A stretch of DNA of 64,000 bases from positions 1 to 64,000 of the forward strand of contig JAURLT010000003.1 of the NCBI GenBank assembly GCA_030831085.1. Direction: 5' to 3'. The notes below the pieces were generated by a model, which saw only the letters and a list, made by a program, of their open reading frames with translations, had not been told where the DNA came from and made no database searches. This stretch comes from Gammaproteobacteria bacterium (GTDB taxonomy: Bacteria > Pseudomonadota > Gammaproteobacteria > Steroidobacterales > Steroidobacteraceae). Shown here one piece after another: positions 6,341-12,713 of this stretch (position 1 is its first letter; each line of letters opens with the position of its first letter). The position numbers and the translations under genes are program-made.

Positions 6341-6537
6341 TTTTTTAACCTATTTCTTGTCGTGGATGGTTCTAAACAGGGCTCGGGCTGGCTTCCTCAC
6401 TTCGACGCACACTCTTTAACAGCCGAGCAGCCCCTGCCGCAGTCTGCCGCACAATACAGAGACAAGCAAAGATACCAAGGAGGGCGCATACGGATCATGG
6501 TGTTAAAAGTGAAGTTTTGGCGTACGCAGAAGGCCCC

Positions 6538-6740
6538 TTCGTCTTCGCCATCCGCCGACACCCGAGTGGCAGTTTTTGGCGCCAAATCCAGCAGGGCACG
6601 GATGGCCCCGGAGGTTCGCTCACGGGCCCGGAGCTCCAGCACCTGTCCGAGCAAGACCAGCACGATGATCACGGCGGCTGCCTTGAAGTAAACCGCGACC
6701 ACCGCATGCTCGTCGCGAAGATCGGGCGGGAACACGCCGG
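6538..6740 (-). pseudogene. Fragment of a copper-transporting P-type ATPase gene (copA-like)
   Basis: This 203-bp segment matches, without gaps, positions 12003-12205 inside the intact copA further along; I count 13 differences. Both copies lie on the minus strand. It encodes the segment equivalent to CopA residues about 170-237 ([14 protein letters not shown], then [16 protein letters not shown]), with Glu189 changed to Lys. Sequence on both sides is unrelated to copA, so this is a detached internal fragment. Chance reading frames run through it, but there is no ATP-binding or phosphorylation domain. Confidence 0.93.
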
Positions 6741-6789
6741 TCAGCGTCCCCGCATCACGCTCCTGCGCAGCGGGTAGCCCCTGCCCGGT

Positions 6790-6959
6790 CGTCCGGCAGC
6801 AGGTGGGCGAGGCCTCGATGTCGACCTGCCGGCAGAGCACTCGCCCGCAGAGCTTCAGGAATTTGGGGCCGATCCCTGCGCTGCACCAGCGCTCCAGGGC
6901 GGCTTCGCTAATACTCCAGCGGGCAGCGATTTGTTTTGGTCGAGGTGAGCGACTCCCAT
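6790..6959 (-). pseudogene. Frameshifted helix-turn-helix (excisionase/AlpA-like) DNA-binding protein remnant
   Basis: Minus-strand translation gives [20 protein letters not shown] followed by [26 protein letters not shown]. This is the winged-helix pattern of short MerR/excisionase-type proteins (elsewhere ...LERWRxxGxGPKFxKxGGRVxYRxxDxEAF). An ATG at 6959 with AAAGGAGA just upstream would start [10 protein letters not shown], but it is out of frame with the helix-turn-helix and terminates early, so one small deletion has broken the gene. The 3' end runs on into unrelated sequence and then the copA fragment. Such proteins are common near integrases and conjugative elements, which supports past mobile DNA here. 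Confidence 0.65.
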
Positions 6960-7104: not shown

Positions 7105-7620
7105 TTATCGCTGAGCCGCTACCCCACCGGCCAATGATTCCCGCATCCGCTGCGATTCTCTCTGCGCCTCAGCCAGGAGCTGATCCCAGTCATCAGGGGG
7201 ATGCCCGCCTTCCAGCATCTTGCGGAACACCCGGTAGGCGTCGTCGCTGCTTTCGTAGGCGCGCTTGGTGTCTTCGTCATTCACCCAGGCGTAAACGATC
7301 ACCTTGCTCGGGGCGTGGTAGCGGAAGAATAGGCGGTACTGCTGGAAGAACTTGGCCCGGAACCAGTGCTTGTGATCGTCACCGAGCGTCCCACCCTGGC
7401 GGTACTCCGGTCGCGTCGGATCTTGCGGGATGACATCGAACGCCAGCTTGGTGGTCGCGGCAAGTCGTTTGCTGGCGTTCTTTTTCACGTACCCGACAGG
7501 GTCCTTTTGCTTCAGGCTCTCGACCTGCCGCACCAGCGCTTCAATCTGTGCGAGGAACAGTGGATGGGCAAAGACCATCCAGCCATGAATGACCAGAGGC
7601 TCGGGCTTCCCTGCGCTCAT
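7105..7620 (-). CDS. yhaV: Type II toxin YhaV (ribosome-dependent RNase)
   Basis: 171-aa toxin of the YhaV family, a RelE-superfamily ribonuclease that cleaves mRNA and is neutralised by PrlF. The family core is intact: GWMVFAHPLFLAQIEAL at the N-terminus, VGYVKKNASKRLAATTKLAF, VIPQDPTRPEYRQGGTLG, HWFRAKFFQQYRLFFRYH and VIVYAWVNDEDTKRAY. There is no frameshift or premature stop. Its ATG overlaps the antitoxin stop codon as ATGA at 7617-7620, so translation is coupled and the toxin is made after the antitoxin. The location in a decayed accessory region fits a horizontally acquired module. Confidence 0.95.
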   Translation of the reverse strand: MSAGKPEPLVIHGWMVFAHPLFLAQIEALVRQVESLKQKDPVGYVKKNASKRLAATTKLAFDVIPQDPTRPEYRQGGTLGDDHKHWFRAKFFQQYRLFFRYHAPSKVIVYAWVNDEDTKRAYESSDDAYRVFRKMLEGGHPPDDWDQLLAEAQRESQRMRESLAGGVAAQR

Positions 7621-7946
7621 TCATCGTCCGCCGACAGGGCGGCATCGAGATCGACATCGACGCCGCCGACCAGCGACTGGATGCGTTGGACGAGGCCGGA
7701 ATCCACAGCTTGCAGCCGCTCGGGATGGCGAGTGATGTCGGCAGCCAGGAAGCCGAGGAACTGGCGGAGTACCGGGTCGTCACCGTCGGATGCTTCGACG
7801 CGCGTCAACACCACCTCGCCGCTGGGGCGAATGGTGTAGTGGATCTTGTCGCGCTTGCCCAGCTTGAGGGCACGACGCACGGTTTCCGGCACCGTGGTCT
7901 GGTAGCGATCGGTGAGCGTGGATTCGACTTCGATGGTCGGGGCCAT
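7617..7946 (-). CDS. prlF: Antitoxin PrlF (AbrB/SpoVT-type)
   Basis: 109-aa antitoxin and expected autorepressor. Residues about 4-50 form the swapped-hairpin AbrB DNA-binding domain (ESTLTDRYQTTVPETVRRALKLG); the C-terminal part, ending in an acidic tail, should bind YhaV. I chose ATG at 7946 because GGGAGA lies just upstream and the protein then begins directly at the AbrB fold; a longer open frame to 8084 would read through the promoter and both operator palindromes. First gene of a two-gene operon with yhaV (4-nt overlap). Confidence 0.93.
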   Translation of the reverse strand: MAPTIEVESTLTDRYQTTVPETVRRALKLGKRDKIHYTIRPSGEVVLTRVEASDGDDPVLRQFLGFLAADITRHPERLQAVDSGLVQRIQSLVGGVDVDLDAALSADDE

Positions 7947-7979
7947 GGCAGTCTCCCGCGGATATGGGTTGATGCCTGC

Positions 7980-8020
7980 ATAGTAATGCAATTGCATTGT
8001 CTTGTAAATGCAATTGCATT
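7980..8020 (-). promoter_or_regulatory. prlF-yhaV promoter with two identical 14-bp palindromes
   Basis: On the minus strand a sigma-70-like promoter reads TTTACA (8003-8008), 17 bases, TACTAT (7980-7985). Two perfect copies of the palindrome AATGCAATTGCATT lie at 7985-7998 (filling most of the spacer and touching the -10) and 8007-8020 (touching the -35). They are 22 bp apart, about two helical turns, so two dimers would bind the same face. This is the expected layout for autorepression by the PrlF-YhaV complex. The binding protein is inferred from position. Confidence 0.85.
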
Positions 8021-10496: not shown

Positions 10497-12713
10497 TCAC
10501 CGCAGGTCCACAGTCCGCAGCCTCAGGGCGTTCGTGATGACGCTGACTGACGACAAGGTCATGGCCGCTGCCGCAACGACCGGTGAAAGCAGCAGCCCGA
10601 AGAACGGATACAGCACCCCCGCCGCCAGCGGGATACCCGCCGCATTGTAGGCGAACGACAGGAACAGGTTCTGTCGGATGTTCCGCATGGTCGCGCGCGA
10701 TAATTTCAGCGCCCTCACGATGCCGATGAGGTCGCCCTTGAGCAGGGTGACACCCGAACTTTCCATGGCGACATCCGTGCCGGTGCCCATGGCGATGCCC
10801 ACCTCGGCAGCCGCCAGGGCCGGCGCGTCGTTCACCCCGTCGCCTGCCATCGCCACCACCCGCCCCTCTCCGCGCAGGCGCTGCACAATCGTGGCCTTGT
10901 CCTCAGGGAAGACCTCCGCCATCACCTCATCGATGCCCAACTGCCTCGCGACTGCTCTGGCGGTGGTCAGCCCGTCTCCGGTCAACATGACGATGCGCAG
11001 CCCCGCATCGCGGAGCTGATCAATGGCCTCCGGCGTGGTGGCCTTGATGGGGTCGGCAATGGCGACAAATCCTGCCAACCGTCCATCGAGTGCCACGTAA
11101 ATCACGGTTGCCGCCTCGGCCCGCCGGTCTTCCGCCGCGGCCTCCATGGGCGCGACGTCCACGCCGTTTTCCGCAAGAAACCGGGCGGCGCCCGAAATCA
11201 CGGTTACGCCGTCCACGAGACCTTGCACGCCCTTGCCGACCGGCGAATCGAAATCCAGCACCTCGCTCAGTGTCAGGCCTTGCTCCCGCGCGGCGTCCAC
11301 CACGGCCATGGCCAGCGGGTGCTCGCTTAAACGCTCGAGGCTGGCGAGTGTCGCCAGCAGTGCGTCGGCCTGAAAACCGTTCGCCGGTTCGATAGCCACC
11401 ACCCGGGGGCGTCCTTCGGTCAGGGTGCCGGTCTTGTCGACCACCAGGGTGTCGAGCCTTTCCAGGCGCTCTAGAGCCTCGGCGTCCCTGATCATGACCC
11501 CGTTCTGTGCGCCTCGCCCTACCCCTACCATGATGGACATGGGTGTGGCCAGCCCGAGCGCACAGGGACAGGCGATGATGAGCACGGCCACCGATGTGAT
11601 GAGTGCATAGGACAAGGAGGGCTCCGGTCCCCACACCCACCAAGCCAGGAACGTGACCACAGCGATGCCCACCACAGCGGGCACAAACCATGCCGACACC
11701 ACGTCTGCGAGGCGCTGGATGGATGCCCGGCTGCGCTGTGCGGCCGCCACCATTTGCACGATCTGGGCCAGGAGGGTGTCGGCGCCCACCCTCTCCGCCT
11801 GCATGACGAAGCTGCCAGTCTGGTTCAAGGTACCGGCGGTCAGCCGCGAGCCCGGCTGCTTGGTCGCCGGCATTGGCTCGCCCGTGATCATCGACTCGTC
11901 CACCGTCGCCTTTCCGTCGCTGAGGACGCCATCGACGGGCACCTTCTCGCCCGGTCTGACTCGCAACCACTCCCCGACCTGGATCGCATCGACGGGCACC
12001 GTTTCGTCTTCGCCATCCGCCGACACCCGAGTGGCGGTTTTTGGCGCCAAATCCAGCAGCGCGCGGATGGCCCCGGAGGTTCGCTCACGGGCCCGGAGCT
12101 CGAGCACCTGCCCAAGCAGCACCAGTACGATGATTACGGCGGCAGCCTCGAAGTAAACCGCGACCACCGCATGCTCGTCTCGAAGATCGGGCGGGAACAC
12201 GCCGGGCACGACGGTGCCAATCACGCTGTAAAGCCAGGCTGCGCCGGTGCCGAGGGCGATCAGGGTGAACATGTTGAGGCTGCGCCGAGTGATTGAACGC
12301 CACGCCCGCACGAAGAAGGGCAAGCCCGCCCAAAACACTACTGGCGTCGCGAGAAACAGTTGCAGCCAATTGGAGGTCTGAGGCTGCAGCAGGCGACTGA
12401 AATCCATTGCATGGCTGCCCATTTCCAGCAACACGACAGGCAGGGTAAAAACCAGTCCCACCTGGAAGCGACGGGTCAGGTCGGTGAGCTCGGGATTCTT
12501 ATTATCGACGCTGACCGCAATCAGCGGCTCGAGGGCCATGCCGCACACTGGGCAATTCCCCGGGCCGACCTGCCTCACCTCCGGGTGCATAGGGCAGGTA
12601 AACATCCGCGCAGGCGATCCGGGCGCTACTGGCGCCGACCCAGGCCGCTGCGCGTGACAGTGAGCGCCCTCCGTGGCGATCAGTCCACTGCAGTCATGGT
12701 CGCGCCGGTTCAC
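10497..12713 (-). CDS. copA: Copper-exporting P-type ATPase with YHS-like metal-binding N-terminus
   Basis: 738-aa P1B-type ATPase that pumps Cu(I) (possibly Ag(I)) out of the cytoplasm. Instead of a CxxC HMA domain, the N-terminus carries a short heavy-metal-binding motif, CPMHPEV...CPVCGM (Cys40, 54, 57). Eight membrane segments are expected; the transport site is CPC at 382-384. TGEP (277-280) is the actuator motif, DKTGT with Asp426 is phosphorylated, SEHPLA is the nucleotide-domain motif and [10 protein letters not shown] the hinge. I used GTG 12713, which overlaps the upstream lipoprotein gene by 20 nt and suggests coupling; ATG 12605 is an alternative just before the metal motif. Residues 170-237 are duplicated as a fragment at 6538-6740. 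Confidence 0.95.

Follow-up and report, generated by a model that had tools for sequence, protein, structure and literature searches.

A candidate PrlF operator, AATGC-N4-GCATT, in the promoters of prlF-yhaV toxin-antitoxin modules

Described relatives and the prlF-yhaV pair

The PrlF-YhaV complex of Escherichia coli is reportedly hexameric and is said, in work ascribed to Schmidt and to the year 2007 (J Mol Biol), to bind a conserved sequence in its own promoter. The pair of E. coli K-12 comprises the same antitoxin and toxin families as the pair analyzed here, which is located in a stretch of 64,000 nt, referred to below as the window. In front of K-12 prlF the sequence AATGCATTTGCATT ends 57 bp before the ATG and matches the motif of the window. 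At up to two mismatches and within 160 nt, one site is present in K-12, whereas the window has two; the K-12 site overlaps, by eye, the -35 hexamer of a TTGCAT-16-TATAAT promoter, whereas in the window one site lies in the spacer and the other at the -35 hexamer.

Two further modules of E. coli are comparable in parts. The toxin MazF belongs to another family than YhaV. The antitoxin of MazE-MazF is likewise of the AbrB/SpoVT type and represses its own operon, and the sections on its regulation describe that MazF augments DNA binding and then, at a very high ratio, abolishes it; the operator is an 'alternating palindrome' and thus unlike that of the window (PMC4803016). RelB-RelE possesses a toxin of the RelE superfamily, as YhaV is, and according to the sections devoted to it two complexes bind adjacent operator sites cooperatively, the DNA-binding domain of RelB being of the ribbon-helix-helix type whereas that of PrlF is of the AbrB type (PMC11980606). 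For PrlF itself, control of the expression of its own operon is stated in a passage of a review (PMC5408214), and a Bradyrhizobium YhaV homologue is described as bacteriostatic in E. coli in an excerpted report (PMC5082802). In the open-licence papers searched no description was found of the site, of the two-site -35/-10 layout or of the AATGC/AAGGA difference treated below. The putative switch of the window is an orderly example of an already known kind.

In the window the antitoxin gene comes first, and the two reading frames are intact and overlap by 4 bp. The gene prlF (7617..7946, minus strand) encodes an AbrB/SpoVT-type antitoxin of 109 aa, and yhaV (7105..7620, minus strand) a RelE-superfamily endoribonuclease toxin of 171 aa. 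The identity as prlF-yhaV, which the initial annotation had claimed, was confirmed by matches over nearly the whole of both family profiles, namely PF15937 for PrlF (E 1.3e-46; 157 bits vs a cut-off of 32) and PF11663 for YhaV (E 7.7e-63; profile positions 1-137 of 138). The NCBIfam profile search named PrlF (equivalog NF007429) and returned no family for YhaV. By both families and by adjacency the pair is, judged from its sequence, a PrlF-YhaV type II toxin-antitoxin module.

A profile of PrlF matched the AbrB-family chains 5itj, 5itm and 2l66 as well as SpoVT within residues 8-51 (E 0.00035-0.0028), and the predicted N-terminal domain is of the AbrB type. Seven designed repeat proteins topped the same profile list; no single stretch passed and they were taken for chance. 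The structure model of PrlF was poor, with a mean pLDDT of 48.2 and a pTM of 0.27.

Two observations concern the surroundings of the pair. A short minus-strand frame at 6397-6840 repeats a stretch of a P-type ATPase-like protein encoded at 10497-12713 on the same strand; the shared run ends in VSADGEDE, one difference was seen, and it looks as if part of the ATPase-like gene had been copied next to prlF-yhaV. Moreover, the PrlF protein and the promoter stretch of the window recur in two metagenome bins labelled Ramlibacter and Prosthecobacter (L003 and L004), and this identity suggests a mobile piece or mis-binning. These two loci are not independent of the window.

The palindromes, their promoter and their conservation

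The palindrome AATGCAATTGCATT of 14 bp is present as two perfect copies at 7985-7998 and 8007-8020, as had been noticed at first reading. The distance of 22 bp that was given with them is correct from start to start, whereas the gap between the copies amounts to 8 bp. Ten perfect 14-bp palindromes occur in the window, and AATGCAATTGCATT is the sole sequence among them that is found twice. No further copy was found elsewhere in the 64,000 nt at up to three mismatches, and none in the 2.52-Mb genome (89% complete) at up to two mismatches.

A promoter-like TTTACA-17-TACTAT was found once on the minus strand in a pattern scan, compared to a mean of 0.2 in shuffles, and agrees with the promoter originally proposed: the -35 hexamer TTTACA occupies 8003..8008 and the -10 hexamer TACTAT 7980..7985, both read from the higher coordinate downwards, with a spacer of 17 bp. 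The downstream copy (7985..7998), which is the putative spacer operator site and corresponds to a near-universal site in the relatives, indeed fills the spacer as claimed, since 13 of its 14 bases lie within the 17-bp spacer and the remaining one is the first base of the -10 hexamer. The upstream copy (8007..8020), a putative upstream operator site with counterparts in fewer than half of the relatives, had been described as covering the -35 hexamer; it merely touches it, the two having in common 2 bases, the first two of the hexamer, with the remainder of the copy upstream of it. The likely ribosome-binding site of prlF, as read from the letters, is GGGAGA at 7952..7957 (minus strand). The spacer palindrome also holds an ATG (7995-7997, minus strand) in frame with prlF, the frame being open to 8084. 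This ATG precedes the expected transcription start and probably does not serve for initiation; an in-frame ATG within the palindrome recurs in the prlF loci of relatives.

For the analysis of conservation, PrlF relatives were taken from a collection in which each species is represented by one genome, which yielded at least 79 loci and, together with the window, 80. Two loci with less than 130 nt upstream (L046 and L055) were left out, so that 78 loci entered the motif count. Among the matches listed, AATGC-N4-GCATT was present within 130 nt upstream in 77 of the 78 prlF loci when one mismatch was allowed, and in 72 of them without any mismatch. At the same tolerance the control motifs, that is the mirror and five other palindromes, were found in at most 1 of the 78 loci each, and the same half-sites with a gap of 0, 2, 3, 5 or 6 in 1/78 each; when two mismatches were allowed, the mirror and palindrome controls rose to as many as 6/78 and the altered-gap controls to as many as 17/78, all among the matches listed. 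Other positions around the gene were scanned for the element at up to one mismatch, and among the matches listed it was found in 0/78 of the first 130 nt of the gene, in 0/78 of the next 130 nt, in 0/76 of the stretches from -260 to -130 and in 1/76 of those from -390 to -260. The sole miss among the 78 loci, L081, has a PrlF match that starts at residue 47, and its 'upstream' stretch is therefore probably mostly coding. Absence of the motif in front of homologous prlF genes, which had been named beforehand as evidence against an operator, was thus not encountered, and the comparison over the listed loci bears out the element as a putative prlF operator.

A sample of the phylum comprised 398 genomes, 35 of which exceeded the cut-off for PF15937, and the loci of the best ones were taken. 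Within 200 nt upstream, 18 of these 19 best phylum loci (L089-L107) carry the element; among the 18 positives is L106, whose gene is truncated at the end of a contig. The remaining locus, L107, carries AAGGAAATTTCCTT instead, and due to the fact that L107 and two further full-length matches of the sample, L160 and L161, carry AAGGA-type sites, the tally for the phylum is 18 of 21. Among the weaker AbrB-type matches, which cover mainly the AbrB-like part (L108-L117), the element was found in 0 of 10. No recognisable site was found upstream of the plasmid-borne prlF-yhaV of Escherichia, Citrobacter and Klebsiella (L118, L185 and L186), which are of the T-E-R-S-Q type and cluster together on the tree with good support. 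On plasmids of Tistrella and Pseudosulfitobacter (L180 and L189) PrlF is annotated without an adjacent YhaV annotation, the gene tables of the plasmids being incomplete.

Additionally, genomes were scanned for the DNA pattern without regard to proteins. The tandem pattern with at most one mismatch was present in 4 of the 398 phylum genomes, including that of the window, and adjoins prlF-yhaV in all four, while the reversed control pattern was present in one genome. With at most two mismatches the tandem occurred in 5 of 200 genomes of the window's family; in 4 of these it adjoins prlF, and the match away from prlF (L084) has two mismatches. In IMG/VR the exact tandem pattern was found in 5 contigs, only 1 of which adjoins prlF, and in the other four the matches fall within open frames of 100 codons or more and do not fit the promoter pattern. 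The pattern TTGACA-N4-site-AC, in turn, was found in 7 IMG/VR contigs, of which 6 adjoin prlF-yhaV, three of these six being apparently near-copies; the seventh match (L134) lies within a reading frame of 184 aa. The combination of promoter and site is therefore quite specific, whereas in very large collections the bare tandem is not.

The consensus form of the element was derived from 107 aligned promoters, which had been selected because their site has no more than one mismatch, so that the invariance of the arms is partly given by construction and that of the flanking hexamers less so. At the four central positions the variation is limited: the first is A or G in 106 and the last T in 95 of the 107 promoters. 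The site is followed by A (98/107) and C (91/107). TTGACA was the commonest -35 hexamer (36/107, or 61/107 for TTGAC and any base) and TACCAT the commonest -10 hexamer (42/107). An upstream site is lacking at that place in 60 promoters, and in 26 of these the -35 hexamer is TTGACA, TTGACG or TTGACC; the -35 hexamer is therefore independent of the palindrome. Given the variation of the centre, the conserved unit is not the 14-mer in its exact form. The expectation that the same palindrome would recur with the same spacing in front of other prlF genes was consequently borne out for the arms and, in 42 of 49 pitches, for the 22 bp, and was not borne out for the 14-mer as such.

One or two sites and the proposed repression of the promoter

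The number of sites was determined for R-type prlF-yhaV promoters only (R denoting the antitoxin loop residue treated in the last section), which were reduced to 109 distinct ones. More than one site was found in 47, one site in 59 and none in 3 of them. The 49 pitches between neighbouring sites amounted to 22 bp in 42 cases, 23 bp in 2, 18 bp in 2 and 16, 17 and 46 bp in 1 each. Because three enteric loci (L121, L183 and L184) have a pitch of 17 or 18 bp, whole helical turns are not obligatory. The spacing of two helical turns that the initial annotation had emphasized is accordingly the prevailing pitch where two sites exist, and it is not general, in view of the single-site promoters, those without a site and the enteric loci. 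The second site is optional, and many lineages, including that of the window, possess it. While the spacer site is constant, the best tree requires 22 or more changes of state for the upstream site, both trees being 'quick' ones and one of them having 16 of 111 inner branches well supported. Mismatched downstream sites were commoner when an upstream site lies 22 bp away (18/40 vs 4/64, Fisher p 4e-6). When kinship was taken into account, the trait differed in only 3 independent pairs with support (median p 0.5), and the test in the opposite direction, with 5 or 6 pairs, was no better (median p 1), so that a preferential tolerance of a degenerate spacer site beside an upstream site is not established.

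Since a matching site fronts nearly all of the related pairs examined, the palindromes are very probably the site of autorepression, i.e. an autoregulatory operator of prlF-yhaV at which PrlF would act via AATGC-N4-GCATT. We infer PrlF as the binder, repression as the effect and a strengthening role for the second site. In the proposed mechanism a PrlF dimer, by means of its AbrB-type N-terminal domain and either alone or together with YhaV, would bind AATGC-N4-GCATT, and the occupied main site between the -35 and -10 hexamers would keep RNA polymerase off the promoter. Upon loss of PrlF the promoter would open and the antitoxin would be replenished. Lying 22 bp further upstream and in contact with the -35 hexamer, the second site may optionally reinforce the repression. 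A candidate operator that is placed exactly in most members of the PrlF-YhaV family makes binding, repression and toxin-dependent release testable with short DNA.

Different readings of the second site, and of the palindromes as such, have to be weighed against these observations. Conditional cooperativity, which had been put forward from the first reading, would mean that YhaV bridges two PrlF dimers at a low toxin:antitoxin ratio and that an excess of YhaV derepresses the promoter. The 22-bp pitch of 42 of the 49 neighbouring pairs is consistent with such a bridge, the higher frequency of mismatched downstream sites (18/40 vs 4/64) is what mutual help predicts, and regulation of this kind is described in the pertinent sections for mazEF (PMC4803016) and relBE (PMC11980606). 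However, 59 of the 109 promoters are single-site, the three enteric loci deviate in pitch, the association with mismatches is not established in view of kinship, and the 22 bp is also explained by the geometry of the promoter, as the sites end on -35 and -10 hexamers that are 17 bp apart. Conditional cooperativity is thus regarded as a possibility that falls short of being probable. An even chance is given to two independent sites, the second of which would raise occupancy near the -35 hexamer or block the polymerase without contact between the complexes. This agrees with the many changes of state of the upstream site at a constant spacer site and with the existence of other pitches, but the strong preference for 22 bp where a second site is present would argue against it unless promoter geometry accounts for that preference. 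Natural one-site and two-site promoters are suited for asking whether the second site confers toxin sensitivity.

The palindromes might also be used by a host regulator unrelated to PrlF, and E. coli prlF is indeed reported among CpxR-regulated genes in an extract of the relevant article (PMC9600279). Against such a regulator, the motif accompanies prlF in many hosts among the matches listed, no further copy of AATGCAATTGCATT was found in the genome at up to two mismatches, and in one PrlF group the motif is replaced by AAGGA-N4-TCCTT; this explanation is considered highly improbable. Least credible of all is a chance repeat or an RNA structure, in favour of which nothing was found, given that the control motifs reached at most 1/78 against 77/78 for the element (at most one mismatch, matches listed). 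RNA structure was rejected, since the elements precede the expected start of transcription and vary in their centre.

Antitoxin loop and half-sites

Of 185 loci, 159 have YhaV, and in 145 of these an antitoxin frame was recognized; the other 14 were dropped. For the comparison of loop and operator, 144 records were reduced to 114 distinct YhaV-adjacent antitoxins, whereby doubly fetched loci were merged. The loop residue scored was the one before Y/G/S/F-Q, two before the T-T of Q-T-T. Of the 114 distinct antitoxins, 106 have R at this position and 8 have K. AATGC is associated with 103 of the R antitoxins, the other 3 having no site, and AAGGA with 7 of the K antitoxins, the eighth (L171) having AATGC. 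The AAGGA-N4-TCCTT loci, which have a K-G loop, are L107 (= L154), L124, L160, L161, L174, L178 and L181, and in three of them (L124, L161 and L178) the site has one mismatch. The AAGGA sites fill the place that is held elsewhere by AATGC-N4-GCATT, in the same 14-bp frame.

Judging from the AbrB-type domain, the loop would contact the DNA. As the operator differs together with this presumed DNA-contact loop, PrlF itself is indicated as the binder, which is to be taken as a lead. A recognition code in which T-x-R-[Y/G/S]-Q would read AATGC and T-x-K-G-Q would read AAGGA, together with second sites that come and go around this fixed core site and would tune a toxin-dependent cooperativity, is proposed tentatively and held to be less likely than not. 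The switch of loop and half-site is a single change on the trees, and kinship alone could therefore explain the pairing; furthermore, other loop positions also differ between the R and K groups. K alone cannot be the code, since the K-Y relatives L115-L117 show, by eye, GTAATGG- or GTAATAC-like arms. The difference between AATGC and AAGGA suggests loop residues that may govern how AbrB-type antitoxins choose their DNA. In front of other AbrB-type antitoxin-like genes (L108, L110, L111 and L112), GTAAGGA...TCCTTAC-like arms were seen by eye, with a longer gap than at the prlF loci.
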